This document shows positions 7,143 through 47,321 of a DNA stretch of 64,000 nucleotides, one piece after another. Below the pieces are notes generated by a model. That model searched no databases, was not told where the DNA came from, and saw only the letters and a list, made by a program, of their open reading frames with translations. How positions within the stretch are numbered: the stretch's first letter is position 1; the number at the start of each line of letters is the position of its first letter. Source of the stretch: Aminiphilus circumscriptus DSM 16581 (GTDB taxonomy: Bacteria; Synergistota; Synergistia; Synergistales; Aminiphilaceae). The stretch lies in assembly GCF_000526375.1 (NCBI RefSeq), contig NZ_JAFY01000002.1, forward strand, positions 682,001-746,000, given 5' to 3'. Made by a program: the position numbers and the translations under genes.

Positions 7143-7196
7143 TCCGGTGGATTGTGGCATCATGGCGGCAAAGTACGGAACGGGGAGGGATGCTTC

Positions 7197-7673: not shown

Positions 7674-7721
7674 TCCTGTGCGGTGCCGAAGCGCGAAGAT
7701 GGAGAACGAGGAGGAACGTGC

Positions 7722-8692: not shown

Positions 8693-8715
8693 CGGGGCAT
8701 TGCCCCAGGGTCCGT

Positions 8716-10351: not shown

Positions 10352-10421
10352 GGACGACAACTCCTTCTTCGTTTTCCTGCGGACAAGGGCGGCGGAGGGG
10401 TCTGTTTCCGCAGGTCGGAGA

Positions 10422-11390: not shown

Positions 11391-12098
11391 ATGGCACGGA
11401 AGTTTTTTCTGTTTTTGATGATCCTGAGTGTTTCCGTCGTTCTCGTCTCCGGAGCCTTCGCCGACTGCAATTGCGAGGGGAGCGACACGGAGGGCGGTGG
11501 GAATCGTGATGCTGCGGCGCTCGGGGGTTTCTCCGTCCTTCAGGACGGCATGAAGCTTCTCGGCGCGGGAAACTTCGTCGAGGCGGGAAAGGCTCTCGAG
11601 AAATCCCTGGCGGCGATGGACCCCAAGCTTCGGGGTGATGCGCTGCGCCTGCTCCTCTTCGCCGATCTCGGTGCCGGGGAGTACGACCGGGGAAAGGCGC
11701 GCCTGGAGGAACTGCTCTCCAGGTACGGCGATGCCCGTTCTCTTCTCGTCGGCGACGGCGAGCGGGTGCGCGGTGCGGCGGTACTCCGCTTCGTGGAGGT
11801 TGCGGCGGAGAGAGGGAACGTGGCGGACATCGACGCGGTGCGGGAAGCCCTCGGACCTGCCCTCAAGCTCGATTGGGTCACTGTGGTGGACGCAACGGGA
11901 CATGCGGGAGGGCGGACAAAGCTCTTCGTTCCCGTGGAGTTCGCCCGTGCCCAGGCATTGGCTGCGTCGGGGCGGAACGCCGAGGCGGCGGAGAGTCTCC
12001 AACGGCTTTCCTTCAGCTCCGGACGGGTCCTTTGGAAAGGACGGGTTCTCGATCTGGACGAGGCGGTGGAGGAACTGCGACGCACCATGGCCGGCTGA
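11391..12098 (+). CDS. Exported helical-repeat (TPR-like) protein
   Basis: A 235-residue protein with a clear signal peptide (MARKFFLFLMILSVSVVLVSGAFA is lysine/arginine then hydrophobic, with cleavage after AFA). The mature start is acidic and contains CNC. The remainder is made of alpha-helical pairs resembling tetratricopeptide units: LGAGNFVEAGKALEKSL, LGAGEYDRGKARLEELL and AASGRNAEAAESLQRL. It is probably a periplasmic scaffold or assembly factor; no catalytic motif is visible. The start has AAGGGTGAT seven bases upstream. It is monocistronic between a divergent gene and the convergent sugar operon. Confidence 0.8.
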   Translation: MARKFFLFLMILSVSVVLVSGAFADCNCEGSDTEGGGNRDAAALGGFSVLQDGMKLLGAGNFVEAGKALEKSLAAMDPKLRGDALRLLLFADLGAGEYDRGKARLEELLSRYGDARSLLVGDGERVRGAAVLRFVEVAAERGNVADIDAVREALGPALKLDWVTVVDATGHAGGRTKLFVPVEFARAQALAASGRNAEAAESLQRLSFSSGRVLWKGRVLDLDEAVEELRRTMAG

Positions 12099-12350
12099 GG
12101 CCCGGGCGGAAGGACGCAAGACGAAACGGCGACCGTCTTTGGGCAGCGGCCTGCCCTGAAGAAAACGCCGCGAGAGATGCGCGGAGGCCTTGCGGAGCAG
12201 GAAGGAAGCGGTGTCCGGCAACCCTCTCCGGAAGGCTTTCGGGACCGGGATGCGACGCAAGGCTTTTTCGGAGATGCCACGTGGCGTATGGATGGAAACA
12301 TCGGGATCGGACGAAGCGGAACGGATGAAAGAGGCAAAGGCCGGATCGTG

Positions 12351-12400
12351 AAAAAGCGCTTCGGTCGCCCGGGGTTCTCCCTCGGGTGGCCGAAGCGCTT
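12351..12400 (-). terminator. Rho-independent terminator of the sgc-like operon
   Basis: An imperfect 19-base-pair hairpin (12354-12372 with 12382-12400, with two G-U pairs). Reading the minus strand it is followed directly by TTTTT. It lies 17 bases past the stop of the kinase gene. It may also stop transcripts of the convergent plus-strand gene ending at 12098, although there is no T-run in that direction. Confidence 0.8.
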
Positions 12401-12416
12401 CGTTGTCTGCCCTTGG

Positions 12417-13946
12417 TCAGACCTCCTGCGTCAGGTCGTGCATGAGGTCCTTGGTACGCTCGTAGAGGTCCCGATAGATGCGGTGCGCCCTGTCGTAGAG
12501 CGGTTTCGGCGCAGGGTCCGGGGCGACCGTCTCGAGGCGCCGCACCCAGCGGGAAATGTCGCTGTAGGACGCGAAGAGCCCCGTGCCGAGTCCCGCGAGA
12601 AAGGCGTCGCCGTAGGAAGCTCCGAGCGTGACGGCGGGAACGAGCTGCGCCCTCCCGGCAATGTCGCTCACCATCTGGAGCCATGGGCGGTTCTTCGTTC
12701 CGCCTCCCACGGCGCGCACCTCGAGCGGCGCGGCGTCGATCTCGTCCAGCACGTCGAAGTGGTGGCGGATACCGTGCCCGACTCCTTCCAGCACTGCCCG
12801 ATAGAGGTGTTCCCGGGTGTGGGAAAGCGTGAGGCCGAAGAAGACGCCCCGTGCCTGGGGATCGTTGAGGGGCGTTCGTTCGCCGCTGAAGTAGGGGAGC
12901 ACCACCAGTCCCTCCGCACCGGGAGGGATCGCTGCGGCCAGGGCGGCAAGACGGCCGTAGGCGCTCTCGCCGCCTTTCGCCTCGGCCTCCACGAGTTCCC
13001 GGGCGAGCATGTCCCGGAACCAGCGGGTGAGAACCCCTGTGGTGGCCATGCCCGCCATGATCGCCGACGTGCCGGGGAAGAGATAGGGAGCTGACCAGAG
13101 GCGACGGTCCCGGACGGGACGGTCCACCACCTGGATGTAGAACATGGTGGAGCCGTACATGAGCATGGCCTGCCCCGGCGCGGTGACGCCAGCGCTCACC
13201 GCCTCCGCCGCCGCGTCGATGGTGCCGACGATCACGGGCGTTCCTGTCGCGAGCCCCGTGGCCGCCTCGGCCTCCGGGGTGATCCTTCCGGCGATCTCCG
13301 ACGTCCAGGCGATGTCGGGAAGGCGCTCCGGCTCGATGATGCCCTCGCAGAGATCCTTTCCCCAGGTGCCCGCGGCCATGTCGTAGAGGGGGACGAAGCA
13401 GGAGGCGCTGTAGTGGTCCAGCATACACCGTCCCGTGAGGCGTGCGCAGAGGAACGTGGTGGCCGCCACGATCTTCGCCGCCTTGGCGTAACATTCGGGC
13501 TCGTGTTTTCGAAGCCAGAGGATCTTGGGTCCCACGGACTGGGAGGAAAGGGCGTTTCCCGTCCGGGCGAAGATGGTCTCCGTGCCCATCCGGGCATCGA
13601 GTTCGCGGATCTCCTCCACGGCCCTGGTGTCGATGCCGTAGAGCACGGCATTGCGCAGGGGGCGGCACGCCTCGTCCACGGGAAGCATCACCGGGCCGAT
13701 GGCGCTGCACCCCACGGCGGCGATGCGCTCCGGGGCGATGCGGGAGGTCTCCAGAAGTTCCCGGGTGATGGCGCAGAAATCGCCCCACCAGGCCCGTTCC
13801 GCGTCGTGCTCTGCCCATCCCTGGCGGGGGAGGAGCAGTTCATGGGGGCGAACCGCCGTGGCCACCACGTCGCCCGCCAGGGTGACGAGCACTCCCTTCG
13901 ATTCGTAGGTGCCGATGTCCACGCCGAGAAGATAGCGCTCTTCCAT
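12417..13946 (-). CDS. FGGY-family carbohydrate kinase
   Basis: A cytoplasmic sugar kinase of 509 residues, the usual length for xylulokinase/gluconokinase/LsrK relatives. The N-terminal ATPase motif is LLGVDIGTYESKGVLV, a phosphate-2 motif is in MLMYGSTMFY, an FGGY signature-like region is YFSGERTPLNDPQARG, and the adenosine motif is RAVGGGTKNRPWLQM. It would phosphorylate the sugar imported by the ABC system encoded upstream. Substrate cannot be deduced: the closest-looking transporters handle AI-2, rhamnose or ribose. It is the last gene of the minus-strand operon, 15 bases after the M42 gene, and is followed by a terminator. Confidence 0.92.
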   Translation of the reverse strand: MEERYLLGVDIGTYESKGVLVTLAGDVVATAVRPHELLLPRQGWAEHDAERAWWGDFCAITRELLETSRIAPERIAAVGCSAIGPVMLPVDEACRPLRNAVLYGIDTRAVEEIRELDARMGTETIFARTGNALSSQSVGPKILWLRKHEPECYAKAAKIVAATTFLCARLTGRCMLDHYSASCFVPLYDMAAGTWGKDLCEGIIEPERLPDIAWTSEIAGRITPEAEAATGLATGTPVIVGTIDAAAEAVSAGVTAPGQAMLMYGSTMFYIQVVDRPVRDRRLWSAPYLFPGTSAIMAGMATTGVLTRWFRDMLARELVEAEAKGGESAYGRLAALAAAIPPGAEGLVVLPYFSGERTPLNDPQARGVFFGLTLSHTREHLYRAVLEGVGHGIRHHFDVLDEIDAAPLEVRAVGGGTKNRPWLQMVSDIAGRAQLVPAVTLGASYGDAFLAGLGTGLFASYSDISRWVRRLETVAPDPAPKPLYDRAHRIYRDLYERTKDLMHDLTQEV

Positions 13947-32738: not shown

Positions 32739-34526
32739 CTACTTCTCCGCCCAGCTTTCCGCCACAACCGCCTCGGCCACGACGGGAACGGATGCAAGAA
32801 AGCGGGCTCCCGCGTCCTCCATGGTGCGCGACAGGATTTCCGCGGCGACGGTGGCGTGCTCTTCGGGCACTTCGAGGAGAATTTCGTCGTGCACGGAGGC
32901 GACGATGCGCGCTTCCGTTCCGGAGAGGGCGGCGGGCAGCCTGCCCAGGGCCTCCTTGAGAATGTCCGCTGCGGTTCCCTGGACGGGAGTGTTGAGGCGC
33001 CCGGGAAGCCCCTCGCCGGGAGGAATGCGGCGCAGCCTGCCCGAGAGGGTCCGAACCTCCGCGGAGGGATTTTCCGCTTCCTTCCGGTGCCAGGCGGCGA
33101 TACCGGAATAGGCGTCGAAGAAGCGGGAGCGGAAGTGCTCCGCCTCGCCTCCGGTCATGGCCGCGCCGAAGGTGCTCTGGGCGTAGCGCTGCAGCCCCCG
33201 TGCTCCCATGGCGTAGATGAGGCCGAAGTTGATGGCCTTGGCGAGCTGGCGTTCGCCTTTTGTCACGTCCTCCGGGGCTTTTCCCGTCACAAGCGAGGCG
33301 GTGACGCGATGCAGGTCCTCGCCCGAGCGGTAGGCCTCTCTCATCCGGGCGTCCCCGCTGATTTCCGCGGCCACGCGCAGCTCGATCTGGGAATAGTCCG
33401 CAAGGACGAGGCGCTTGCCCGGCGGCGCGGCGAAGCAGCGTCTGAACCGGGCTTCCCGGGGAATCTGCTGGATGTTGGGCGCCGCGCAGGCAAGGCGACC
33501 CGTGGGGGTGCGCACCTGTGCGTAATGGGAGTGCAGGCGCCCCGTGACGGGATGAATGTGCGCGGCAATGGCATCCCCGAAGGCAGAAGCGGCCTTGGCG
33601 ATCTTTCGGTACTCCAGAAGGGCCTTCACGGCGGGATGATCCGCGAAGGGCTCCAGGTCGCTTCGGGATGTTCCCGTCAGCGGAAGGCCGCCCCGAAGCC
33701 GGAGCGCTTCGAGGAGCTGCTTCGTGCTGTCGGGGTTCACCAGAGCGCCGTCGTCGAAGAGGGAGAGCTGCCCTTGCTGCGGAAGCGCTCCGAGGGCAGC
33801 CCGGAGCGCCTTGAGGGCGGTGGCCTTCTCCTCCCCCAAAGTCGTTCGAAGGGCGTCGAAGCGCTCCCGGGAGAGGGGCATTCCTGTGGCGTGCATTTCC
33901 GCAATCGCGAAAACGCAGTCGAATTCGAGCTTCGCCGTCCCAACGAGTCCCTTGCTTCGCAGGAGGGCCACGAGGGCCTCCCGGAGGGGAAGCAGGATCG
34001 CCGCATCCCGTGCGGCGTAGCAGAGCTGTTCCGGCGACAGGAAGGCGGTGCGCCAGTCGCTGCGTCCCAGCTCTTTGGGGAGGTCCACGCCGAGATGGCG
34101 CGCCGCCAGGGCGCCCAGGCCATGACTGCCGTCGTCCTCGCCGCAGGCCGCAAGCTGGGCCGCCAGCATGGTGTCGAAAAGGGGAGGGGCCACGGGGAGT
34201 TCCTCTCCGGCGAGGAAGGCCAGATCGAAGGCGGCGTTCTGGAAGATCTTCACGGCTTTACCCGTCAGAAGGCGCCGCAGGGGCTCCCGCGCCTCCGCGC
34301 TCCGGATGCGGAACAGGTCCGCCAAAAGCACCGGGCGCTCCGGCGCGGCGATCTGCACCAGGCGGACCCGGCATCGGATCGGGTCGAGTCCCGTGGTTTC
34401 CGTGTCGATGCCGAGGAAAGGGCTCTCGTCGAGGTGGAGTTCTCTGACCGCCTCGGCCAGATCGTCCGCGGAGGAGGCCACGAGAAAGGAGACGGGCAAT
34501 CCGTTGTCGTCCTGGTATCTTTTCAC
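32739..34526 (-). CDS. polA: DNA polymerase I lacking the 5' nuclease domain
   Basis: Family A DNA polymerase of 595 residues made of a 3'-5' exonuclease and a polymerase domain only. Exonuclease motifs are GIDTETTGLD, FQNAAFDLAFL and YAARDAAIL, so proofreading residues are intact. Polymerase motif A is VLADYSQIELR, motif B is KAINFGLIYAMGARGL (Ala replaces the usual Gly after Tyr) and motif C is VASVHDEILLEV. Full-length Pol I would have about 290 more residues at the N-terminus; no 5' nuclease gene is adjacent. The GTG at 34526 follows GGAGG seven bases upstream. It would act in gap filling and repair; a separate nuclease gene elsewhere in the genome is likely. Confidence 0.93.
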   Translation of the reverse strand: MKRYQDDNGLPVSFLVASSADDLAEAVRELHLDESPFLGIDTETTGLDPIRCRVRLVQIAAPERPVLLADLFRIRSAEAREPLRRLLTGKAVKIFQNAAFDLAFLAGEELPVAPPLFDTMLAAQLAACGEDDGSHGLGALAARHLGVDLPKELGRSDWRTAFLSPEQLCYAARDAAILLPLREALVALLRSKGLVGTAKLEFDCVFAIAEMHATGMPLSRERFDALRTTLGEEKATALKALRAALGALPQQGQLSLFDDGALVNPDSTKQLLEALRLRGGLPLTGTSRSDLEPFADHPAVKALLEYRKIAKAASAFGDAIAAHIHPVTGRLHSHYAQVRTPTGRLACAAPNIQQIPREARFRRCFAAPPGKRLVLADYSQIELRVAAEISGDARMREAYRSGEDLHRVTASLVTGKAPEDVTKGERQLAKAINFGLIYAMGARGLQRYAQSTFGAAMTGGEAEHFRSRFFDAYSGIAAWHRKEAENPSAEVRTLSGRLRRIPPGEGLPGRLNTPVQGTAADILKEALGRLPAALSGTEARIVASVHDEILLEVPEEHATVAAEILSRTMEDAGARFLASVPVVAEAVVAESWAEK

Positions 34527-34680
34527 GGCATCGCCTCCGTCGCGGATGTTTCCGGCGGGGAAAACGCACCCTCCTGCATGGTTTCGCTGCACCTGTCATT
34601 GGAGCGCGAGGGGCGGGAGCGGCGTTGCCCCTCCGAAAGGAGTGCTCCGCATTCTGCGATGGTAACACGTGCCGAGAAGA

Positions 34681-35656: not shown

Positions 35657-35685
35657 TTGACATGGTGCATTTTAATGGCTATTGT
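35657..35685 (+). promoter_or_regulatory. Promoter of the mttB/dehydrogenase cluster
   Basis: A perfect -35 box TTGACA (35657-35662) is followed after 17 bases by TATTGT (35680-35685). The start of transcription would be near 35692, about 42 bases before the GTG of the first methyltransferase gene. Confidence 0.7.
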
Positions 35686-35695
35686 GGCTTTGAAG

Positions 35696-35714
35696 GTATA
35701 CATAATTCGTATAC
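35696..35714. promoter_or_regulatory. GTATAC repeat pair, possible GntR/FCD operator
   Basis: The palindrome GTATAC occurs at 35696-35701 and 35709-35714, 13 bases apart, immediately after the predicted transcription start. Operators of FCD-subfamily GntR regulators often have a GTATAC or GGTATA core (NanR is one example). The cluster encodes such a regulator at 43135, so autoregulated repression by roadblock or start-site occlusion is a reasonable inference. Confidence 0.5.
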
Positions 35715-35733
35715 ATATTCGGAGGTGTTCGGC

Positions 35734-37200
35734 GTGATTCATGCGGCGCGATGGGGAGTGCGGAGCACCGTTCTGTCCGAGGAGGAGTTGCGTCGTATCT
35801 CGGACGCGAGTCTTCAAATTCTTGAAAAAACAGGGATGAGAATGCCTCTCTCCGCCGAGAGGCGGGATGCTCTTGCGGGAAAAGGCCTCTTTTTCGAGGA
35901 GGAGGAGTGGAACGGCTCGCCCAGTCTTCGTGTCCGATTTTCTCCCGAATCCGTGGCGACAGCCCTGCAAAGCGCCCCAAAAACGTATACGCTTTGTGCC
36001 CGCAATCCCGAGAACGATCTCTTTTTGGACGGAAGACAAGGATACCTGACCCTTGACGGAAGTGGTCTTTACGTCCTCGATGCCGAAACGGGAGCGGTGC
36101 GTCCCTCCCGAAAGGCGGATCTGGAGACGGCGGTCCGCCTCGCCGATGCACTTCCCGAGATCGCTTTTCTCTGGCCCGTGGTGAGCGCCCAGGACGTTCC
36201 GCCTCCGGTACAGCCCCTCCACGAACTAGAGGCGCTCCTTCGCTTCTCCTCCAAACATGTGCAGGCCATGACGGCGGTAACACCCACGGCAGCCCGGGGA
36301 AGCATCGAGCTCGCCGCGGCTGTCGTCGGAGGCCGCGAGGCGCTCCGCAAGCGTCCGATCCTCTCGAATTTCCAGTGCAGTTTCAGTCCCCTCTCCTATG
36401 ACAGAGACAGTCTCGAAGCGGCGTTCTGTTTCTCCGAGGCGGGCATTCCCACGGGGTTTCTCAACATGACCATCGGATGCGCCACCGCTGGAGCTACTCT
36501 CGCGGCGAATCTCGCCCAGGGAAATGCGGAGGTCCTTGCAGGAATCACGCTCCAGCAGCTTCTCTTTCCCGGCACGCCCACGTTCTACGGCTCCTGCGCC
36601 ACCGTGCTGGAACTTCGTCGGGGTGGTGTCACCTGCGGCGGCCCGGAGGATTGTCTTCTCCAGATGGCGAGCTGCGCCCTGGCCCATTACTACGGTCTTC
36701 CCGCCAACGTGGGAACCTTCGCTTCCGGCGCGCGGATGCCGGACTGGCAGGCGGGATTCGAGAACGCCCTCTCGGGCATGGCGAGTTTTCTCGCCGGGGC
36801 GGACATGATGTGTGGTGCGGGGCTGCTTCAGGGCGCGACGATCTTTTCCGCGGCGCAGACGGTGTTGGATTGTGAGATCTTCGGATTCCTCCGCAGGGCC
36901 GTAGAGGGCCTCTCCGTGGACGACGAGAACCTTGCCCTCTCCGTGATCGAACGTGTCGGGCCGGGGGGTAACTATCTCACCGAGGAGCACACTCTGGCGC
37001 ACATGCGCAAGATCTGGCAGCCCCGCGTTTTGGATCGAAGCTCCACCCGGGATGAGTGGGAGGCTGCGGGGCGTCCCTCTCCGGCGGACCTGGCGGAGAG
37101 GCGGGCACGAAAACTGTTGGAGAAACACGAGCCGGAACCCCTTCCCGGAGAGGCGGAGGTGCGGGAAATTCTCCGGGAGTACGAGGCGCGTCTCGTCTGA
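35734..37200 (+). CDS. MttB-family corrinoid methyltransferase, non-pyrrolysine (first copy)
   Basis: A 488-residue member of the trimethylamine methyltransferase superfamily, which moves a methyl group from a quaternary or tertiary amine to Co(I) of a corrinoid protein. Recognisable segments include EELRRISDASLQILEKTG at the N-terminus, GYLTLDGSGLYVLDAETG, TPTFYGSCATVLELRRGG and SFLAGADMMCGAGLLQGA. The frame is uninterrupted and ends in TGA, so there is no in-frame amber for pyrrolysine; this places it with MtgB, MtpB and MtcB-like enzymes that use glycine betaine, proline betaine, carnitine or others. GGAGG precedes the GTG. It heads a cluster with its own promoter. The substrate is unknown. 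Confidence 0.92.
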   Translation: MIHAARWGVRSTVLSEEELRRISDASLQILEKTGMRMPLSAERRDALAGKGLFFEEEEWNGSPSLRVRFSPESVATALQSAPKTYTLCARNPENDLFLDGRQGYLTLDGSGLYVLDAETGAVRPSRKADLETAVRLADALPEIAFLWPVVSAQDVPPPVQPLHELEALLRFSSKHVQAMTAVTPTAARGSIELAAAVVGGREALRKRPILSNFQCSFSPLSYDRDSLEAAFCFSEAGIPTGFLNMTIGCATAGATLAANLAQGNAEVLAGITLQQLLFPGTPTFYGSCATVLELRRGGVTCGGPEDCLLQMASCALAHYYGLPANVGTFASGARMPDWQAGFENALSGMASFLAGADMMCGAGLLQGATIFSAAQTVLDCEIFGFLRRAVEGLSVDDENLALSVIERVGPGGNYLTEEHTLAHMRKIWQPRVLDRSSTRDEWEAAGRPSPADLAERRARKLLEKHEPEPLPGEAEVREILREYEARLV

Positions 37201-37383
37201 ATTCGGAGCGCGGAGGTTGTTCCCGGGCGAAATGGGGAGGGAATGCGTCTTTCGTGTACGAAGCGGAGGATTCTGCTCCGGGAAATGTTGGCATGCGTTC
37301 GGAGGAGCGTTGATCGTCGCGGTCTTCGGAAGGCGCACCTGCCGGAACGGCGGGAGTGCGGAAAAATGAAGGAGGGTTTGTCC

Positions 37384-38568
37384 ATGGGTTTCGTGTATGC
37401 GGTGCTCGGTGGCGGAAGGCAGGGAACGGCGGCGGCGTATGACATGGCGAAGAACGGGGATGCCGATCGGGTCCTTGTGGGGGATGCGGATCTGGAGGCG
37501 GCGGTGCGGTCCGCGGCGAGGGTGAACACCCTCTTGGGGCGTTCCGTCGCGGAAGCCCACCAGGTGGATGCACGGGATAGCGCGGCACTCCGTCGTTTTC
37601 TGGAGCCGGTGGATTCCTTCCTCTCCGCCGTGCCCTACTGGCTGAACCCTTCGGTTCTGGAGGCTGCCATCGACGCGAAGGCCTGTATGTGCGACCTGGG
37701 GGGCAACACGGACCTGGTTCGGGAACAGATGAAGCGCAGCGACGCCGCGGAGGCGGCGGGAATCGCCGTGGTGCCCGACTGCGGGCAGGTGCCGGGAATG
37801 GGAACGGCCCTCATGAGCTACGCCATGACCTTCCTCGACCGCACGGAGGAACTGCTCATGTGGGACGGTGGCAATGACCAGCATCCGAAGCCTCCGTTCA
37901 ACTACATTCTCACCTTCAACATCGCGGGCCTCACCAACGAGTACTACGGGGTGGCCCATTTCCTCCGGAACGGGAAAAGGGTGGAGGTTCCCACCTTCCT
38001 GGAGGAGGATTACGAGACGGTGGATTTCGGCGGAAAGATCGGCGTCATGGAGGCCTTCGTCGCCGGAGGCGGCACGTCAACAATGCCCTGGACCTACGAG
38101 GGAAAGGTCAGGACGCTCTGGAACAAGACGCTGCGCTGGCCGGGGCACTTCGCCCAGTGGAAGGCCTACATGGACGCGGGACTCCTCGAAGAGGAGCCTG
38201 TCGATGTGGACGGAGTGCAGGTCTCTCCCCGGGCACTGCTGCATCGGGTGCTCGATCCCAAACTGCGGGCACGTCCCGAGGACCGGGATTTCGTCATTGT
38301 CCGGGTGAAGGGTATCGGCGAAAAGGACGGGCTCCGGGCGGAGGTGCTGCTCGACCTGATCGACTACTACGACGAGGCAACGGGTTTCACCGCCATGGAG
38401 CGCACCACCGGATGGGATGGCTCCATCACGGCGATTCTGAACGCCCAGGGGGTGACGCCCCGGGGCGTGCATCCCGTGGAACTCGCCGTTCCGGGAAAGC
38501 GCTTCGCCGAGGAGTTGCGGAAGCGGGGATTTTCCCTGAAGGAGTCCTTCACTATCCATAGAGATTGA
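37384..38568 (+). CDS. Saccharopine dehydrogenase-like oxidoreductase (first copy)
   Basis: A 394-residue NAD(P)-dependent dehydrogenase. The N-terminal Rossmann motif is YAVLGGGRQGTAAAYDM, followed by VLVGDADLEAA. The middle has the family pattern CMCDLGGNTDLVREQ, VPDCGQVPGMGTALM and the catalytic-domain region GGNDQHPKPPFNYILTF. It belongs to the saccharopine dehydrogenase/lysine 6-dehydrogenase group that oxidises or condenses amino groups of diamino acids. Its position between two methyltransferase genes suggests it oxidises the demethylated amine. AAGGAGGG lies seven bases before the ATG. The substrate is not assigned. Confidence 0.9.
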   Translation: MGFVYAVLGGGRQGTAAAYDMAKNGDADRVLVGDADLEAAVRSAARVNTLLGRSVAEAHQVDARDSAALRRFLEPVDSFLSAVPYWLNPSVLEAAIDAKACMCDLGGNTDLVREQMKRSDAAEAAGIAVVPDCGQVPGMGTALMSYAMTFLDRTEELLMWDGGNDQHPKPPFNYILTFNIAGLTNEYYGVAHFLRNGKRVEVPTFLEEDYETVDFGGKIGVMEAFVAGGGTSTMPWTYEGKVRTLWNKTLRWPGHFAQWKAYMDAGLLEEEPVDVDGVQVSPRALLHRVLDPKLRARPEDRDFVIVRVKGIGEKDGLRAEVLLDLIDYYDEATGFTAMERTTGWDGSITAILNAQGVTPRGVHPVELAVPGKRFAEELRKRGFSLKESFTIHRD

Positions 38569-38650
38569 GACAGGAAAGCACTAAAGAGCGGGAGCGGGAG
38601 CGAAGGTGTTCCACCTGGAGCCCTTCGACACACGAACAGGAGGGGTTGTC

Positions 38651-39814
38651 GTGAAGAAAAAGGTGATTGTGTTGGGATGTGGGCTCGTGGGGTCTGTCAT
38701 GGCGCTTGATCTGGCGGCGGACGATGCCTACGAGGTGACCGTGGCGGACGCCAACGAAGAAGCGCTGAAAAAGGCCGCCGCAAAGGCGAAAAATCCCGTG
38801 AAGACCACGACGGGGATCGATTTCGCCTCTCCCGCGTCCATCACCGAAGGTGTACAGGGGCATGATCTCGTCATCGGTGCCGTGCCGGGATCCATGGGGT
38901 ATGCCGCCATCGGTGCGGTGATCAGGGCGGGAGTGAACATGTCGGACATTTCCTTCATGGGCGAGGAATATCGCGACTGGGACAAGGCCGCCAAGGAAGC
39001 GGGGGTCACGCTCTTCGAGGACGTGGGGGTCACCCCCGGCGCGTCGAGCATCCTCATCGGAGACGCCTGCCGACGGCTCGACCGCGTCGATGACGTGACG
39101 ATCTACGTCACGGGGCTTCCCAAGAATCCCGAGCCCCCCTTCAACTATCGCCTCGTCTTCTCCCCGGACGACCTGGTGGAGGAATTCGTTCGCCCAGCCC
39201 GCATCAAGAGAAACGGGAAGATCGTGGAGGAGCCCGCCCTTTCGGGACGGCAGCTCCTCACCTTCGACATTCCCGGCATCTCCGTGCCGCAGATGGAGGG
39301 ATTCTACACCGATGGTGCCCGGTCGCTCCTCGATTCCATTCCCTGTCCCAACGTGAAGGAGATTACCCTCCGCTATCCCGGGACGGCTCGGGACATGGAG
39401 TTTCTCCGGGAGATCGGCCTGTTCGACACGGATCCGGTGGACGTGAAGGGGCAGAAGGTGGCGCCTCGGGATCTCTTCGCCGCTCTTGCCTATCCCAAGA
39501 TGAAGCTCCGGGACGACGAGATCGAGTTCACCTTTTTCCATGTGCTGGTCACGGGAGAGAAGGACGGAAAGAAGGTTCGGGAGGAATACGCTCTTTACGA
39601 CGAGCGGGACCCCGGAACGGGCTACCATTCCATGGCCCGGACCACGGGCTTTCCCTGCGTGATCGTGGGGCGTCTGATCGCCGAAGGAGTCCTGCGCATG
39701 CCCGGCGTGAACCCTCCCGAGGCGGTGGGTACCTGCGCCCCCGCAGTGGAGCGGTTCCTCCAGGAGATGACGAAGCGGGGTGTGAAGATCATCCATCGGG
39801 TGACGGAACTTTAG
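38651..39814 (+). CDS. Saccharopine dehydrogenase-like oxidoreductase (second copy)
   Basis: A 387-residue paralogue of the preceding dehydrogenase. The Rossmann motif is VIVLGCGLVGSVMALDL, with VTVADANEEALKKA. VGVTPGASSILIGDACRRL, TGLPKNPEPPFNYRLVFS and RTTGFPCVIVGRLIAEG align with the corresponding segments of its neighbour. Two different copies could form a heteromer or act in successive oxidation steps. The GTG at 38651 follows GGAGGGG. The second methyltransferase gene starts 17 bases after its stop, so they are co-transcribed. Confidence 0.9.
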   Translation: MKKKVIVLGCGLVGSVMALDLAADDAYEVTVADANEEALKKAAAKAKNPVKTTTGIDFASPASITEGVQGHDLVIGAVPGSMGYAAIGAVIRAGVNMSDISFMGEEYRDWDKAAKEAGVTLFEDVGVTPGASSILIGDACRRLDRVDDVTIYVTGLPKNPEPPFNYRLVFSPDDLVEEFVRPARIKRNGKIVEEPALSGRQLLTFDIPGISVPQMEGFYTDGARSLLDSIPCPNVKEITLRYPGTARDMEFLREIGLFDTDPVDVKGQKVAPRDLFAALAYPKMKLRDDEIEFTFFHVLVTGEKDGKKVREEYALYDERDPGTGYHSMARTTGFPCVIVGRLIAEGVLRMPGVNPPEAVGTCAPAVERFLQEMTKRGVKIIHRVTEL

Positions 39815-39831
39815 GGGGGCTGGGCGAAGCC

Positions 39832-41328
39832 ATGGCACGGGAACGGAAGAAAGGCTACGGCCCCAAAAAGCCCATCGCTCCCATACCGCGCTACTGGAAT
39901 CCTCCCATCGTGCTGGTTCAGGAGGAGCAGCGCCGGGCCATTCACGGCGCCTCCCTCACGGTGCTGGAACATGCGGGCATGCGCATCGCCTCGGAGGAGG
40001 CCCGGGAGATCCTCGCCCGGGCGGGTGCCCGCGTCGAGGAGGATCGGGTCTTCTTCCCTTGGACGCTCGTGGAGGGTGCCCTGCGAAAGATTCCTTCGGT
40101 GATTCGCCTTTGTGGGCGCACTCCGGAGGAGGATCTTCTCCTGGACGGGCGTCACACCTACATGAATCTCGACGGAAACGGGATGGAAATTCTGGATTTC
40201 GAGACCGGAGTCCGCCGTCCCACTACCCTCGCCGACCTCGAAACGGCCACGCGGATGGCGGACTACCTGGAGCAGATCGGTTACGTGTGGCCCATCGCCA
40301 CCGCCCGGGACTGTCCCGTGCCTGTGCAGCCCCTTTACGAAACGCGATGCCAACTCCGCAACACCACCAAACACGTCATGACCATGACCGTGGCGGACGG
40401 TTTCTGCGCCCGGGGCGTCATCGACATGGCCGCGGCGGTGGCGGGAGGACGCGAGGCGTTGCGCCGCCGCCCGCTCATCTCTCTTTTCGAGAGCGTCACC
40501 AGCCCTCTCGCGCTGGAACGGGGTGCCTGCGAGGCGCTTCTCGCCTTTGCGAGGGAAGGTCTGCCCACGGGAATCATGACCATGCCTCTCTCGGGGGCCA
40601 CCGCGCCGGTCACCGTGGCGGGGAATCTCGTGCTCGCCAACGCGGAGGTTCTCGCAGGGCTTACGCTGGTGCAGTGTGTCACGCCGGGGTGTCCCTCCTG
40701 GTACGCCTCGTGTTCCACCGTGATGGATCTCAAGTCCGGCGGCGTCACCTCCAACGGTCCCGAGGACTACCTGATCCAGGCGGGAACCATCGCCATGGCG
40801 CGGATCCACTACAATATTCCCGTCATGACCGGCGTCATGGGGACCGAGGCACGTGCTCCGGGATGGCAGTCCGCCGTGGAGGATTCCCTCTCCGTGTACA
40901 CCTCCGCGCTTTGCGGCGCGGACCTCATGCCCGGCGCGGGGCTTTTGAAGAACGCCACGGTGCTCTCCTACGAGGAACTTGTCCTGGGGTGCGAGATCTA
41001 CGAGATGGTCCGCCGCGTCAAGGAAGGATTTCCCACCGACGCGGAGGCCCTCGCCGTGGAGGCCATCCTGCGGGTGGGGCCTCGGGGGGATTTCATGACC
41101 GATCCCCACACGCTGGAACACATGCGGGAGTTGTGGCAACCCGATGTGCTGCGTCGGTGCAGCTTCGACGCCTGGGAGAGTTCGGGACGTGCCGATGCCC
41201 TGGAGCGTGCCCGGGAGAAGGCGGCGTGGATCATGGAACACCACGAGCCGGAACCGCTTTCCGCCTCGGTGGATGCGGAACTCGACCGCATTCTCGAGAC
41301 CTACGCCGAAGAAAAGGGAGGGATCTGA
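39832..41328 (+). CDS. MttB-family corrinoid methyltransferase, non-pyrrolysine (second copy)
   Basis: A 498-residue paralogue of the methyltransferase at 35734. Shared segments include RRAIHGASLTVLEHAGMRI, TYMNLDGNGMEILDFETG, PVQPLYETRCQLRNTTKHV, SWYASCSTVMDLKSGG and ALCGADLMPGAGLLKNA. The frame has no amber codon and stops at TGA. It starts with a lysine/arginine-rich stretch (MARERKKGYGPKKP) absent from the first copy. With the corrinoid protein encoded at 43884 it would demethylate an amine; having two copies suggests stepwise removal of methyl groups or two substrates. The ribosome-binding site is a G-run and not strong, perhaps relying on coupling to the gene 17 bases upstream. Confidence 0.92.
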   Translation: MARERKKGYGPKKPIAPIPRYWNPPIVLVQEEQRRAIHGASLTVLEHAGMRIASEEAREILARAGARVEEDRVFFPWTLVEGALRKIPSVIRLCGRTPEEDLLLDGRHTYMNLDGNGMEILDFETGVRRPTTLADLETATRMADYLEQIGYVWPIATARDCPVPVQPLYETRCQLRNTTKHVMTMTVADGFCARGVIDMAAAVAGGREALRRRPLISLFESVTSPLALERGACEALLAFAREGLPTGIMTMPLSGATAPVTVAGNLVLANAEVLAGLTLVQCVTPGCPSWYASCSTVMDLKSGGVTSNGPEDYLIQAGTIAMARIHYNIPVMTGVMGTEARAPGWQSAVEDSLSVYTSALCGADLMPGAGLLKNATVLSYEELVLGCEIYEMVRRVKEGFPTDAEALAVEAILRVGPRGDFMTDPHTLEHMRELWQPDVLRRCSFDAWESSGRADALERAREKAAWIMEHHEPEPLSASVDAELDRILETYAEEKGGI

Positions 41329-41431
41329 CCCCGGCTGTATGCGAGTACGTTTCCATCCCGTTCTTTCCGGAGCGTTTCCCGGGTGCGCCGCCGCAGTTCG
41401 CCGTACCAGCTTCGGTGGCGCCGGAGCGGAT

Positions 41432-41468
41432 GCTTTCCCGGCGGAGCGTGTTGCTCCGCCGGGAAAGC
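41432..41468 (+). terminator. Perfect hairpin inside the mtt cluster
   Basis: A 16-base-pair perfect inverted repeat (41432-41447 with 41453-41468) with a five-base GTGTT loop, between the second methyltransferase gene and nhaC. No T-run follows, so it may be a weak or attenuating terminator or an mRNA-processing/stability element that lowers expression of the downstream genes. Confidence 0.5.
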
Positions 41469-41507
41469 GTCCCGAGCCGAAGAGAAGAAGAGGGAGGCTG
41501 AAGAGAC

Positions 41508-43028
41508 ATGTCCAGAGAGTTGCCGCCGGAAGTGCAGGAATACCAGGAGGAAAAGGAGCTCGGAGAAAAGCGGGGAGGCCAGGGGAAGACCCCGACGCTC
41601 ACCGAGTCCGTCGGCGTGGTGGTTGCCATCGCGGGGGTCATCACCGTGTGCATTCTTATGCTGGGCCTCGACGCGCACATTCCCATCTTTCTCTGCGTTC
41701 TTTTCGTCACCGTTCTCGGACTGCGTCTCAAGAATACCTGGGAGCACCTGGAGGCAGGATTCGTCTCCGCCATCAACGCCAGCATGTCCGCCTTCTTCAT
41801 TCTCATGCTCGTGGGCATTCTCGTGGGCGTGTGGATGATCTCCGGCGTCATCAGCACCATGATCGACTATGGTTTGGCCATTCTCTCGCCGAAGATCTTC
41901 CTCATCGCCACCTACGTCATCTGCAGCATCGTCGCCCTCGCCACGGGAACCTCCTGGGGCACGGCGGCCTCCATCGGCGTCGCTCTCGTCGGTGTGGGAG
42001 CCGGTCTCGGCATTCCCGCGGGCATGACGGGAGGCGCCATCGTCGCCGGTGCCTACTTCGGCGACAAGATGAGCCCTTTGTCCGACACCACGAACCTTGC
42101 TCCCGCCGTGTCCGGGGCCAAGCTCTACGACCACATCGGCGCCATGATCTACACCACGGGACCCACCTGGATTCTCGCTGGGGCGGCCTTTATCGTTCTG
42201 AGCCTGCTCTACGGCGGCGGCGACTTCGATCCCACCCGGGTGAACCAGATCCGGGAGGCTCTGGCGAGCGTGCAGAAGATCCATCCGCTGCTGCTCCTGC
42301 CGCCTCTGTGCGTCATCGGCATGGCGCTCCTGAAGATTCCCGCCGTGCCGGGCATGTTCGTGGGGATCGTCATGGGCGCCCTCTGCGGCATGGTCATCCA
42401 GGGAGTTGGATTCGTCGACATGATGACCGCGGCGAACTACGGCTACGAGGGGGCCGTCTCCGCGGAGGTCTTCGGCGAAGAAATCGCGGAGCTCGTGAAC
42501 GGTCTGCTCACCCGTGGAGGCCTGCAGAACATGATGTGGACCATCTCCCTTTCCTGGATGGCCATCGGGTTCGGCGGCATGCTCGAAGCGGTGGGATATC
42601 TCCACGTCATTCTCCACGCGGTGGTGAACTACATGAACCGCGTGGGAAACCTCGTGACGGCCACGCTGGCCTCTTGCTTCGCCGTGAACCTCCTCATCGG
42701 CGACCAGTATCTGGCCATCATCCTGCCGGGGCGCCTCTTCAAACCCGCCTACGAGGAACTCGGCCTGGAGCCGCGCATGCTCTCCAGGACACTCGAGGAT
42801 GCGGGAACGCTCACGTCACCTCTCGTCCCCTGGAACGCCTGCGGGGCCTATATGGCGGGGACGCTCGGCATTCCCACCCTCACCTACGCGCCCTACGCGA
42901 TCCTCAACTGGCTGAATCCCTTCGTCTCCGCCTTCATCGCCTACGCGGGGTTCAAGATCTTCTGGCGCGAGGGATATGGGCCGGCGGCGAAAAGCGACGC
43001 GGTTCCCGCGGCGGGCACGGGGAAATAG
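41508..43028 (+). CDS. nhaC: NhaC-family Na+/H+ antiporter
   Basis: An inner-membrane protein of 506 residues with about 11-12 hydrophobic segments. Family-typical regions are ALATGTSWGTAASIGVAL, YFGDKMSPLSDTTNLAP, NLLIGDQYLAIILPG and LTSPLVPWNACGAYMAG. Proteins annotated NhaC in catabolic clusters may exchange organic substrates as well as cations (compare malate/lactate antiporter MleN), so it could import the methylated amine or export a product. The N-terminal 30 residues are charged and cytoplasmic. GGGAGG lies upstream of the ATG. Confidence 0.93.
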   Translation: MSRELPPEVQEYQEEKELGEKRGGQGKTPTLTESVGVVVAIAGVITVCILMLGLDAHIPIFLCVLFVTVLGLRLKNTWEHLEAGFVSAINASMSAFFILMLVGILVGVWMISGVISTMIDYGLAILSPKIFLIATYVICSIVALATGTSWGTAASIGVALVGVGAGLGIPAGMTGGAIVAGAYFGDKMSPLSDTTNLAPAVSGAKLYDHIGAMIYTTGPTWILAGAAFIVLSLLYGGGDFDPTRVNQIREALASVQKIHPLLLLPPLCVIGMALLKIPAVPGMFVGIVMGALCGMVIQGVGFVDMMTAANYGYEGAVSAEVFGEEIAELVNGLLTRGGLQNMMWTISLSWMAIGFGGMLEAVGYLHVILHAVVNYMNRVGNLVTATLASCFAVNLLIGDQYLAIILPGRLFKPAYEELGLEPRMLSRTLEDAGTLTSPLVPWNACGAYMAGTLGIPTLTYAPYAILNWLNPFVSAFIAYAGFKIFWREGYGPAAKSDAVPAAGTGK

Positions 43029-43134
43029 TGTGAGGAAGCCGTCGGCATTTTCTTTTGCCGTTCCACCGTCGGAAGATCGGTCACCGGGTGGTTCCGGCAT
43101 TCGGACCTGAACATCCATGGAAGAGAGGACCGTC

Positions 43135-43842
43135 ATGCGGAACGGAGACGAGGGAACGGACTCGCCGGAGAAGACGACACTGGAGGATCTGGCCTACGGG
43201 CGGATCCGTGCGGCCATTCTTGCCCGTAAACTCCCGCCGGGAACCCGGCTTGCGGAACCGACGCTGGCGAAGAAGATCAACATCAGCCGCACGCCCGTTC
43301 GCGGGGCACTGCGGCGCCTCGCCTCGGAGGGGTTGGTGACGATCTCCGCAAACCATGGGGCCACGGTGACCGTTCCCTCCCTCCGGGATATCGAGAACGC
43401 CTACCAGGTTCGAGAAGCCCTCGAATGTCTCGCCGCCTCCGTTGCGGCGGAGAGGGTGTCGCGGGAGGACACGGTACGGCTTCGCGAGGCCGAGCGGGAG
43501 GAGCGACGCTGTCTCGCCCAGGGAGATCTGGAGGGGTACATCCGGATCAACGAGAGGATTCATCTCCTTGTGGCCTCCCTCTCGGGCAACCGTCTTCTGG
43601 AGCAGGCGGTCGAGTCCGCCATGAACCGTACCAACGTGTACCTGTCCCTCCTGGATCCGTTTTACGAACTGGCGGATTCGGGAGACCGCCAGACCTGGGA
43701 ACACGCCATCATCATCGATGCCCTGGAGGCCGGAGACAGCCTCTGGGCGGAGGCGGCCATGCGGGTGCACATCCGCTCCTCCCGGGCGGTGATGGACCTG
43801 GACCTCGCACAAAAGAAGCCTTTCCCGGTCGATGACATTTGA
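43135..43842 (+). CDS. GntR-family regulator (FCD subfamily)
   Basis: A 235-residue transcription factor. Residues about 20-85 are the GntR winged helix (AYGRIRAAILARKLPPGTRL, recognition helix SRTPVRGALRRLASEG, wing NHGATVTVPS). The rest is an all-helical FCD ligand-binding domain with three candidate metal-binding histidines in NERIHLL, TWEHAII and AAMRVHI. It probably senses the substrate or an intermediate of the surrounding methyltransferase cluster and may bind the GTATAC pair near 35700. ATG 43135 (AGAGGA five bases upstream) is preferred to an ATG at 43117, which has no ribosome-binding site. Confidence 0.92.
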   Translation: MRNGDEGTDSPEKTTLEDLAYGRIRAAILARKLPPGTRLAEPTLAKKINISRTPVRGALRRLASEGLVTISANHGATVTVPSLRDIENAYQVREALECLAASVAAERVSREDTVRLREAEREERRCLAQGDLEGYIRINERIHLLVASLSGNRLLEQAVESAMNRTNVYLSLLDPFYELADSGDRQTWEHAIIIDALEAGDSLWAEAAMRVHIRSSRAVMDLDLAQKKPFPVDDI

Positions 43843-43883
43843 GAAGACGAACGAGACGGAGACAAAAAAGGAGTGACCCGGAC

Positions 43884-44549
43884 GTGGAGAAACACTACGA
43901 GGCGGTTCGAGAGCATGTCGTGGAAGGACAGGTAACACAGACGGAAAACGCCGTCCGCAAGGCCCTCGACGCGGGATGTCCTCCCGAGGAAATTCTCCGG
44001 AAGGGGCTTCTCGCCGGCATGGACGAAGTGGGAGCCCTTTTCAAGGATGGGGAGATGTTCGTCCCCGAGGTGTTGGTCTCTGCCAAGGCCATGAAGGGCG
44101 GAATGGAGATCCTCCGTCCCTTCCTGGCGACAGGTGCGGCGGGGCAGGGCGGGCGCATTCTCACCGCCACCGTGGAGGGCGATCTTCACGACATCGGTGT
44201 GAAGCTCGTGGGCATGATGCTCGAAGGCGCGGGATTCGAGGTGCGTAATCTCGGCGTGGACCTTCCGGCGGCGCGCATCGTGGAGGAGGTGCGGAGTTGG
44301 CGTCCCCACGTGCTGGGTCTCTCCGCCATGCTCACCACGACAATGACCAACATGAAGGGTGTGGTGGAGTCGCTCCGGGAGGAAGGGCTCGCGGAGGGAC
44401 TCGCGATCATGGTGGGGGGTGCTCCCGTATCGAAGGAGTACGCCGAACGTCTCGGCGTACATTATTCCGCCGATGCCGCCGAGGCGGTGGGTGTGGCGAA
44501 GGCGCTTCTTCAGAAGTTTCGGGAAGGGGCGCTTTCCGAAGCGCGCTAG
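43884..44549 (+). CDS. Corrinoid (B12-binding) methyl carrier protein
   Basis: A 221-residue MttC/MtbC-type protein that carries the methyl group on cobalt between a substrate methyltransferase and a second methyltransferase. Residues about 1-88 form the helical cap (EEILRKGLLAGMDEVGALF). The B12 domain has the base-off signature DLHDIG with cobalt ligand H102, a serine in LGLSAMLTTTM and the GG motif VGGAPVSKEYA. It is the last gene of the cluster, 41 bases after gntR, and partners with the two MttB-like enzymes. No corrinoid:tetrahydrofolate methyltransferase or reactivating RamA gene is in the window, so these must be elsewhere. Confidence 0.95.
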   Translation: MEKHYEAVREHVVEGQVTQTENAVRKALDAGCPPEEILRKGLLAGMDEVGALFKDGEMFVPEVLVSAKAMKGGMEILRPFLATGAAGQGGRILTATVEGDLHDIGVKLVGMMLEGAGFEVRNLGVDLPAARIVEEVRSWRPHVLGLSAMLTTTMTNMKGVVESLREEGLAEGLAIMVGGAPVSKEYAERLGVHYSADAAEAVGVAKALLQKFREGALSEAR

Positions 44550-44587
44550 AAACTCCTGGTGCCGCAGTCCGAATCGAAAAGCGCGAG

Positions 44588-44627
44588 AGAGAGCCGTCTC
44601 CGATCCGCCGGAGACGGCTCTCTTCTT
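44588..44627 (+). terminator. Terminator of the mtt cluster
   Basis: A perfect 14-base-pair stem (44588-44601 with 44610-44623) and an eight-base loop, followed by TCTTGTC. It sits 38 bases after the corrinoid protein gene and before the convergent HD-GYP gene, so it may work in both directions. Confidence 0.75.
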
Positions 44628-44677
44628 GTCGCTTCGTGCTGTCGGGGCGTACGATTCCTGTGCCGGCGAGCCTTGCT

Positions 44678-46957
44678 TCAGGGAAGGATGCGGAGCGCCA
44701 CGTCCACCACGGCAGGGTCGAACTGAGTCCCCCGGTGACGCTTCAGTTCCCGGAGGGCCTCGCTCTTTGCCATGGCGGGGCGGTAGGAGCGGCAGCTCGT
44801 CATGGCGTCGAAGGCGTCCGCCACGGAGAGGATGCGTGCGCCGAGCGGGATCGCCTCTCCCGAGATGCCCTCAGGGTAGCCAGTGCCGTCCCAGCGTTCA
44901 TGGTGGTGCAGCACGTCCCGGGCGATTTCCCCGAGGTGTGCCGAGGAGGAGAGCACCGCGTATCCCCAGCGGGGATGCATCTTGATGATCTCGTACTCTT
45001 CGTCTTCGAGCGGGCCCGGCTTGTTCAGCACCGTCACGGGCACGAGGAGTTTCCCCAGGTCGTGGAGGAGTCCCGTCCAGTAGATGCGGGAGATGTCGTT
45101 TTCATCCATCTTCAGCGCTGCGGCGAGACGGCATGCCAGTTGGGCCACGTTCTCGGAATGTCCCTTGGTGTAGTGGTCGTAGATCTCCAGAATGCCGATC
45201 ATCACGGAAACGAGCTGTTTCTGGAAGGATGACGAAGTGGCGACGTAGCGACGAATGCCGAGATAGGCCGAGGCTATGTTGCCGAAGGCGGCGAGAACCC
45301 GCTCCGACCGGAGGGAGAAGGCGCTCGCTTCGCTGCGCCCCTGGGAGATGTCCAGACAAATTTGTCCCACCATTTCCTCGTCGAGGAAGAACGAGTGCAG
45401 AAGAGACTGGCGGATGGGGAGCACGGCGGTGCGGAATTTCTCCGCCAGCGAAGGCGGCATGCGCTGATCGAGATCGTCGTAGACGAAGGGAACGACACTT
45501 GTTCCCTTCGTTACACGAAGGTGCGTCCGTTTCAGGGGGAGCGTGCGAAGGCATTCCGCGTCGTGTCCCACTGCGTCGACGATGCGCCATTCCTCGCCGT
45601 TCACCTCGGAGATGCTGCCGCAGTCTGCCTCGGGGATGAACTGGAGCGCCATGTGGAGCAGCTCCGGAAGAAACGTCTCCTCTCCGGAGGTGGCTTCGGA
45701 GGTGAGGCGTCCTGTCGCGCCGAGGATATGCTCCAGTTCGTCGTTCAGGATCCGGGTTTCTCCGTAGAGGGCGCGGGCCTGCTGCAGCGCCGCCTCTCGC
45801 TCCTCCATGGTCGCGCTGAGTTTGACCGCCATGCCGCGGAAGGTGTCGAGCAGCGCCTGAACCTCTGTCACGGAGGAGGACTTCAGGTTTTGGTCGGGTT
45901 CGAACTCCCCCGGATTCGCCGCAAGAGCCGCCATATTTCGCGCAAGCTGTTCGAAGGGTGTCGTGAGAGTGTCCACGATCCTGCCGAAGGCGATGGAGAG
46001 TCCTCCTGCCCCTAAAAGAAGAAGAAAGAGAATTCCCAGAAGAAACGCCCCGAAGAGGTTGCCCAGAAGAGTGAAATCGAGGGAGAGGAGCAGCAGTTTC
46101 GGCTCCTCCACGACAACGTTGTCCTCTTCGGGAGGGCGGACATAGAGGAGCAGGCGCCTCTTCAGGAGTCCGTCCCGGAGAAGGAGGCGCTCTTTTCCTC
46201 CCCGCACGGCCTCCCGGACGAGAGCCCAATCCTCCGAGGTCGTCAGGGTGGGGTCTCCCGTTTCGAGCCTTCTCGTGGCGAGGCTGGCGAAGGCGAGGGA
46301 GTTCACGAAAGGAAAGTTCAGCATGCCTCGGATCTTCTCCAGATATTTGTCCATGTGTTTCCGCGGCACGGAGACGCTCACCTCGAGAATCGTATCGTCC
46401 TGCAGTTTCCAGTAGGCGTACTTGTTGTAGTCGTCGGTCATGGTGGCCGATGTGGCCCGTTGGAGTCGCACCTCTCCGGGAACCATGGTGCGGAGCGTTC
46501 TCCAGAGCCGTGTGAATTGAGAAAGATCGAGCCCGAGGTCGGGAGGATGGTTGGTGCGCGTCACTCGTCCTTTGGAATCGATGAGGTAATAGCGAAAAGT
46601 TCCGGGGTCGAAGGGGGATGTGCCGGAGGCGCGGACGAAGCGTCGCATCAGAGAGGCGAGTTCCTCGTCGGGAGCTTCCGAAGGAAGCCGCCCCTCCTCT
46701 GCGTAATGCATCTTGAGATCCTCCAGAAAGCGGAGGAGAAGCGCATCGCCGTTCTCCTCGAGGAGATCGAACATGTCCTTGTACTCCGCAACCTGGCGGG
46801 ACGCCAGGGTGGCGAGGTGATCCTCGAAGAAGGCCATGCCTTTCGTGGTTGCCATCCACCCTCCCCAGAGGAGTATGCTCAGGAAGAAAACCAACATGAG
46901 CGTTCCCACTGCGGAAAGAGTACGGAAAAAATGTTGTCCCAGCGATTTTGGCGTCAT
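44678..46957 (-). CDS. Membrane receptor with HD-GYP output
   Basis: A 759-residue signalling protein. An N-terminal transmembrane helix (SAVGTLMLVFFLSILLWGGW) and a second one (LGNLFGAFLLGILFLLLLGAG, near residue 300) enclose a periplasmic sensor of about 260 residues; a HAMP linker and short coiled coil follow, then a GAF-like domain. The C-terminus is an HD-GYP phosphodiesterase with HSENVAQLA, LLHDLGKLL, HPRWGYAVL, HHHERWDGTGYPEG and ILSVADAFDAMTS. All metal-binding positions appear present, so it should hydrolyse cyclic di-GMP. The start at 46957 (AGGTG site) was preferred to 46972, which lacks one. Confidence 0.92.
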   Translation of the reverse strand: MTPKSLGQHFFRTLSAVGTLMLVFFLSILLWGGWMATTKGMAFFEDHLATLASRQVAEYKDMFDLLEENGDALLLRFLEDLKMHYAEEGRLPSEAPDEELASLMRRFVRASGTSPFDPGTFRYYLIDSKGRVTRTNHPPDLGLDLSQFTRLWRTLRTMVPGEVRLQRATSATMTDDYNKYAYWKLQDDTILEVSVSVPRKHMDKYLEKIRGMLNFPFVNSLAFASLATRRLETGDPTLTTSEDWALVREAVRGGKERLLLRDGLLKRRLLLYVRPPEEDNVVVEEPKLLLLSLDFTLLGNLFGAFLLGILFLLLLGAGGLSIAFGRIVDTLTTPFEQLARNMAALAANPGEFEPDQNLKSSSVTEVQALLDTFRGMAVKLSATMEEREAALQQARALYGETRILNDELEHILGATGRLTSEATSGEETFLPELLHMALQFIPEADCGSISEVNGEEWRIVDAVGHDAECLRTLPLKRTHLRVTKGTSVVPFVYDDLDQRMPPSLAEKFRTAVLPIRQSLLHSFFLDEEMVGQICLDISQGRSEASAFSLRSERVLAAFGNIASAYLGIRRYVATSSSFQKQLVSVMIGILEIYDHYTKGHSENVAQLACRLAAALKMDENDISRIYWTGLLHDLGKLLVPVTVLNKPGPLEDEEYEIIKMHPRWGYAVLSSSAHLGEIARDVLHHHERWDGTGYPEGISGEAIPLGARILSVADAFDAMTSCRSYRPAMAKSEALRELKRHRGTQFDPAVVDVALRILP

Positions 46958-47321
46958 CGGCGCACCTGCCATGAAAGAGCGGAATTCGGACCTTTTATAA
47001 AGCATACCATAAAGGCGACATAGGGAAAGCGTTTTGAAAAGGTCGGGCATGGTCGAGCAACGAAAAGGGAAAAAGACCGCAGAGTTCCCCTTTCCAGTCA
47101 GGAGGCTTTGCGCTAGAGTTGCTTCATGCTTCTGGCCGGAGTTCCCTTTTTCCGGAGACGGACTATCGGCAGCGGAAAAAGGACGGTTCCCTTCTCTGCC
47201 GCATCCTTTTGAGGCGAAAGGGCGCGAAAGTGTTTTTCGGAAACCCCGGGAGGAGCGTGTGCATCGGAGAACTCGTCGAAGTGGGTGGGATCTGTCGGAA
47301 AAAGAAAGTGAGGGAGTTCTG
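46958..47321. other. Divergent intergenic region
   Basis: About 360 bases between the divergent HD-GYP and oligoendopeptidase genes. An AT-rich island near 46990-47015 (containing TTTATAA) is the likeliest promoter region for the minus-strand gene. No clear -35/-10 pair was found for the plus strand. Confidence 0.3.

Follow-up and report, generated by a model that had tools for sequence, protein, structure and literature searches.

A gene cluster of Aminiphilus circumscriptus combining MttB-type methyltransferases with saccharopine dehydrogenase-like proteins

What compound is handled by a bacterial gene cluster in which two methyltransferases of the MttB superfamily, both free of pyrrolysine, accompany two proteins of the saccharopine dehydrogenase family (SDH1 and SDH2)? 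The question is raised by a locus of Aminiphilus circumscriptus DSM 16581, analysed within a stretch of 64,000 nucleotides (contig NZ_JAFY01000002.1, positions 682,001 to 746,000), hereafter called the window. A coupling of methyltransferase and dehydrogenase is well supported by the comparison of gene order across genomes. The reading tentatively preferred here, with somewhat less than even confidence, is that the cluster would serve the uptake and anaerobic catabolism of a basic amino acid carrying a side-chain quaternary nitrogen (N6-trimethyllysine, N5-trimethylornithine or close relatives). The seven genes, at 35734–44549 of the window, are the following.

35734..37200, + strand: mttB1, 488 amino acids (aa), non-pyrrolysine MttB superfamily; PF06253 (MTTB), 288 bits
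37384..38568, + strand: SDH1, 394 aa, NAD(P) oxidoreductase of the saccharopine dehydrogenase family; PF16653 (Sacchrp_dh_C) and PF03435 (Sacchrp_dh_NADP)
38651..39814, + strand: SDH2, 387 aa, saccharopine/L-lysine-6-dehydrogenase-like oxidoreductase; PF16653, 151 bits, and Sacchrp_dh_NADP
39832..41328, + strand: mttB2, 498 aa, second non-pyrrolysine MttB; PF06253, 315 bits
41508..43028, + strand: nhaC-family secondary carrier, 506 aa; PF03553 (Na_H_antiporter), 191 bits
43117..43842, + strand: GntR/FCD-family transcriptional regulator; PF00392 and PF07729
43839..44549, + strand: corrinoid protein of the MtgC/MtbC/MttC type; PF02310 and PF02607 (B12-binding and B12-binding_2); start codon uncertain

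All seven genes were matched by Pfam far above cut-off, and the single same-strand cluster that an earlier note had described from the letters alone is thus borne out in content and order. The start of mttB1 is most likely the GTG at 35734, preceded by a GGAGG site; SDH1 (ATG, 37384) and SDH2 (GTG, 38651) each follow a ribosome-binding-like site, and their relatives begin at the same positions. A genus-mate (G001) carries the identical gene order, with 94–99% protein identity. The ratio of non-synonymous to synonymous substitution (dN/dS) against the sister genome was 0.04–0.18 for the six cluster genes measured, indicating genes under selection and not chance open reading frames.

Conservation of the mttB1–SDH1 pair

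A profile-guided scan of the named genomes yielded 80 MttB loci. Four of those among the closest in Bacillota (L087, L088, L090 and L097) carry an SDH1 orthologue, 63–65% identical, directly after mttB1. Since these loci had been found through mttB, the converse was tested by using SDH1 profiles, with no use of mttB, to search 398 genomes of Bacillota as well as 98 from a single class. SDH1 proved to be rare; two more orthologues were retrieved (L186 and L232, in genomes G277 and G623), both directly behind mttB1. SDH1 is therefore found directly downstream of mttB1 in six of six Bacillota genomes, corresponding to all orthologues found outside the genus with intact upstream DNA. The overall identity of the SDH1 orthologues adjoining mttB1 is 62-70%.

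In a synergistote of another family (G185), mttB2-mttB1 end one contig, and SDH1-nhaC-SDH2-corrinoid run from the end of another; the two halves are likely joined. A chance adjacency of mttB and SDH was rejected: the six genomes of Bacillota keep the arrangement, and so do G185 and the sister genome. The search for the same gene order in other genomes, which the earlier note had asked for, thus came out in its favour, with SDHs present in syntenic clusters. The note had also proposed that an N-methylated amino acid is demethylated and the freed amine then oxidised by SDH-type enzymes: the core of this idea, the coupling, is upheld by conserved synteny, while its reactions and substrate we still infer.

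The methyltransferases and their corrinoid partner

No MttB genes were found in the 3.2-Mb genome besides those of MttB1 and MttB2, which share 47% identity. Both give full-length matches to PF06253, whose curated cut-off is 25 bits, and belong to the superfamily; MttB1 is a probable quaternary-amine:corrinoid methyltransferase, as judged from homology. No in-frame TAG is present in mttB1, and both frames are open. At the position of Pyl334, Ala is found in MttB1 and Gly in MttB2, and at that of Tyr364, Cys and Pro, respectively; these smaller residues suggest a roomier pocket. In a comparison of nine sequences, SDH1-linked or from Synergistota, an Asp beside the Gly110 loop, Asp183 in P0001 numbering, did not vary. 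With the TIGR02369 model, the two proteins scored 435 and 412 bits, below the cut-off of 525.

In order to place the two enzymes, a tree of 91 rows was built, including MtgB (2qne) and the pyrrolysine-dependent trimethylamine methyltransferase MttB (7xcl); MtpB, MtcB, MtyB and MthB of Eubacterium limosum were not placed. MttB1 and MttB2 fall within a clade of 40 rows that is supported at 100/100 and has a long stem. It comprises an mttB1 branch from Synergistota and Bacillota, an mttB2 branch confined in the sample to Synergistota, and a Chloroflexota branch. MtgB lies far outside this clade and 7xcl in another group; the absence of known-substrate enzymes from the clade was assessed against MtgB and MttB only. 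Membership in the glycine betaine (MtgB) subfamily was accordingly rejected. A pyrrolysine-dependent identity was rejected as well, on the separate clade, the residues at the two pocket positions and the TIGR02369 scores: fold family and type of corrinoid partner are shared with 7xcl, but the amber codon is not. The earlier note's view of both enzymes as non-pyrrolysine MttBs is confirmed, and its suggestion of a tree showed them apart from both enzymes of known substrate, in a comparison with these two substrate classes only.

Five MttB-rich genomes, examined after a search of 398 genomes, all carry amber-interrupted MttBs, and none of the five is thus E. limosum. In Anaerolineae and other Chloroflexota (L098-L164), a corrinoid gene, an mttB1-like gene and a second mttB commonly follow one another, and a GntR gene often precedes the series.

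The cognate corrinoid protein of the two enzymes, with its two domains, is encoded at 43839-44549, and scores below cut-off with both TIGR02370 (191 bits) and the MtgC model NF047996 (182 bits). It bears on a rival explanation, by which the substrate of the MttBs would be a common betaine, such as glycine betaine, proline betaine or carnitine, and the SDHs would oxidise the resulting tertiary amine, and not a lysine-like compound. Orthologues of the corrinoid protein, 57-61% identical, adjoin MttBs of other subfamilies; the characterised non-pyrrolysine MttBs, except MthB, use quaternary amines that bear a carboxylic acid (PMC12155760), and the tree is without the four E. limosum enzymes named above. 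The separation from MtgB points the other way, as do the dehydrogenases: family members of known function use lysine, saccharopine or polyamine substrates (PMC10413350), and in synergistotes SDH2 is tied to NhaC carriers without a nearby mttB. A common betaine as substrate is considered doubtful.

Candidate partners for the further transfer of the methyl group are encoded on another contig of the same genome (G000:C7), where a RACo-type activase (RACo_C_ter, 192 bits), a CobW protein and a URO-D methyltransferase (187 bits) lie together. The last one, at 6728-8122 of locus L165 (G000:C7:25000-44000), has a C-terminal thioredoxin-like stretch, weakly matched and of HUIPC type. Activase and methyltransferase may serve the MttB cluster; in another genome (G082), URO-D orthologues of 60–63% identity are found near MttB and corrinoid genes. 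In E. limosum, similarly, activase and second methyltransferase genes are at a locus apart from the MttBs (PMC8604678).

Dehydrogenases, carrier and proposed pathway

Sacchrp_dh_NADP and Sacchrp_dh_C are above cut-off in SDH1 and SDH2, both of which thus belong to the saccharopine dehydrogenase family. The best match of SDH2 in the PDB, over its whole length, is 3abi (203 bits), PH1688 of Pyrococcus horikoshii, which is called an L-lysine 6-dehydrogenase (PMC10413350). The two proteins group with 99/96 support, in a grouping made unsure by long branches. SDH2 orthologues, 57–73% identical, occur in about 20 synergistote genomes. In several synergistote loci, among them L168, L175 and L176 (genomes G071, G187 and G167), nhaC-SDH2-SDH3 operons with a divergent regulator of the Lrp/AsnC type have no adjacent mttB, and look like units of basic amino-acid catabolism. 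In two further loci (L078 and L170, genomes G012 and G021), SDH2 stands in a row with a GntR gene, the gene of a RACo-type activase and those of a TRAP transporter; no MttB was detected in either genome. Only relatives about 30% identical to the SDHs were found by a plasmid search; one of them, in Rhizobium, has genes for Lrp, an aldehyde dehydrogenase and an aminotransferase as neighbours, which is a context of the lysine type.

The carrier exceeds the cut-off of TIGR00931 (444 bits, cut-off 370) and does not reach that of the ArcD arginine/ornithine antiporter model (378 bits, cut-off 650). It shares the NhaC family (PF03553) with LysW, a predicted lysine transporter of the NhaC superfamily (PMC5584792); unlike for such carriers, no lysine riboswitch is found here, as Rfam gave no match anywhere in the window. 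Riboswitch control of the cluster was rejected on the same ground.

A parallel case is offered by L189 (G477:C1:42000-56000), in the sole genome of its order (G477), where NhaC, a corrinoid protein, an MttB, an ornithine-racemase-like protein (347 bits, below the cut-off of 480) and an SDH are encoded on one strand at 6371-13212. Pyridoxal phosphate (PLP)-dependent racemases act on a primary alpha-amine. Since a free alpha-amine is needed, the methylated nitrogen in the L189 system would be that of the side chain. An N-methylated lysine or ornithine, which the earlier note had named as one candidate, is still a good candidate substrate for the window's cluster, on the basis of the LysDH-like SDH2, the NhaC-family carrier and this ornithine-racemase-like gene in a separate cluster.

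In the pathway that we infer, with its reactions, direction of transport, substrate and order of steps, the methylated compound would be imported by the NhaC-family carrier. MttB1 and MttB2, related enzymes with differing pockets, would each take one methyl group off a quaternary nitrogen and load it on the Co(I) of the corrinoid protein, from which the URO-D-type methyltransferase of G000:C7 would pass it on, probably to tetrahydrofolate; the RACo-type activase encoded beside it would re-reduce the corrinoid protein. SDH1, as the partner of MttB1, would abstract a hydride at the carbon to which the demethylated amine is attached, releasing a methylated amine and leaving a semialdehyde behind, and SDH2 would perform an equivalent reaction on a lysine-like product or a neighbouring intermediate. 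The GntR/FCD protein would regulate the gene set. In its most complete form, the proposal is of an anaerobic route for protein-derived trimethyllysine or trimethylornithine, in which MttB1 would remove one side-chain methyl group and SDH1, as a new kind of dehydrogenase, would cleave the dimethylated product into dimethylamine and an amino-acid semialdehyde; so specific a version is judged unlikely.

Several observations weigh against a methylated basic amino acid as substrate. SDH1 is more distant from 3abi than SDH2 (99 bits), and forms a clade of its own on a long stem, outside the LysDH/SDH2/SDH3 group. The NhaC proteins of the Bacillota loci are of a different, Tet35-like subfamily, and the MttB and SDH of L189 are distant from those of the window, making that locus a parallel and not an orthologous case. 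Members of the mttB1 clade also occur without any SDH1 (L089, L091-L096 and Chloroflexota). In L091, L095 and L096, from genomes without SDH1, the mttB1-clade gene is directly followed by a gene for a dimethylamine methyltransferase (PF09505) and by one for an MttB, whose in-frame stop was taken to be the pyrrolysine position. With some of its members beside such pyrrolysine-type genes for trimethylamine and dimethylamine, the clade may have several substrates. As to the fate of the methyl group, no match to CdhC/ACS was found in the window's genome, which makes its use in acetogenesis improbable.

In another alternative, with which the long stem of SDH1 agrees, this protein would be a condensing enzyme, or would act on an opine-like secondary amine; the substrate would then be no simple amino acid, but an N-methylated opine or polyamine. 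Secondary amines are handled by two types of enzyme in the family, the saccharopine and the carboxyspermidine dehydrogenases (PMC10413350). However, the NCBIfam model for carboxynorspermidine scored 26-28 bits, against a cut-off of 800, and the His-Glu-Glu sequence reported for carboxyspermidine dehydrogenases (PMC10413350) is in neither SDH; a carboxy(nor)spermidine dehydrogenase identity and carboxyspermidine synthesis were rejected on these grounds, and the opine or polyamine alternative is very unlikely. A structure predicted for SDH1 from five sequences failed to reach a usable quality, with a mean pLDDT of 42.

The mttB-free loci bear on a different alternative, by which two modules are stacked: SDH2 and NhaC would form a lysine/ornithine catabolic unit, and mttB1-SDH1-mttB2-corrinoid a separate methylamine unit, sharing an operon for regulation. 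Such a division would fit the nhaC-SDH2 and nhaC-SDH2-SDH3 arrangements without mttB in several synergistote loci, and the mttB1-SDH1 pairs without SDH2 in Bacillota. Yet both units co-occur in two families of Synergistota, in differing gene orders, and in Bacillota, too, the mttB1-SDH1 pair is accompanied by a NhaC-family gene, which adjoins it in L186 and follows at a distance of two genes in L087. Two independent modules are held to be doubtful, and a single pathway for a methylated basic amino acid is kept as the preferred reading.

Surroundings of the cluster and relation to known systems

The signals found at the ends of the cluster are the following.

35657..35685, + strand: sigma-70-like promoter match, TTGACA-17-TATTGT; sole match in 10 kb, with 1.2 expected from shuffles
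44592..44632, + strand: probable terminator hairpin, with a perfect 14-bp stem and a T-rich tail

Of the promoter and terminator that the earlier note had placed around the genes, only the latter held. The 66 nucleotides surrounding the hairpin fold at -43.6 kcal/mol (z = -6.4), a very stable structure missed by the consensus scanner, whereas one promoter-like match, with 1.2 expected by chance, is no evidence by itself. Between mttB2 and nhaC, at 41434-41467, lies a perfect 15-bp hairpin that the sister genome does not share. Two genes on the - strand flank the cluster. The one at 32739-34592 encodes a family A DNA polymerase (617 aa) in which a 3'-5' exonuclease domain was matched, but no 5' nuclease domain; the one at 44678-47050 encodes an HD-GYP-type (HD_5) protein (790 aa) and converges on the cluster end. 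A defence function was rejected in view of the lack of PADLOC hits, and no tRNA was found in the window.

The MtgB, MtpB, MtcB, MtyB and MthB systems combine a non-pyrrolysine MttB and a corrinoid protein with an activase and a corrinoid:THF methyltransferase. The cluster shares with them a non-pyrrolysine enzyme of the MttB superfamily, a corrinoid protein of the MtgC type and, at a different locus, genes for an activase and a second methyltransferase; it differs from them in the addition of two SDH-family dehydrogenases and a NhaC carrier, and its MttBs belong to another clade than MtgB. No paper linking the MttB superfamily with saccharopine dehydrogenase or trimethyllysine was found, in a literature search of incomplete coverage that gives weak evidence of novelty.

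Among the thousands of members of the MttB superfamily, only six have been assigned a physiological substrate (PMC12155760), and what becomes of the demethylated product of carnitine or gamma-butyrobetaine is described as unknown (PMC8604678). In the present case, an uncharacterised MttB clade has a dehydrogenase genetically tied to it in two phyla, which narrows the substrate class and offers a short list of compounds, together with two enzymes that lend themselves to a joint assay. If the substrate is trimethyllysine, an anaerobic sink would be added for a common protein-derived compound, and the trimethyllysine/trimethylornithine route, if true, would make the onward fate of the demethylated amine known for an MttB system.

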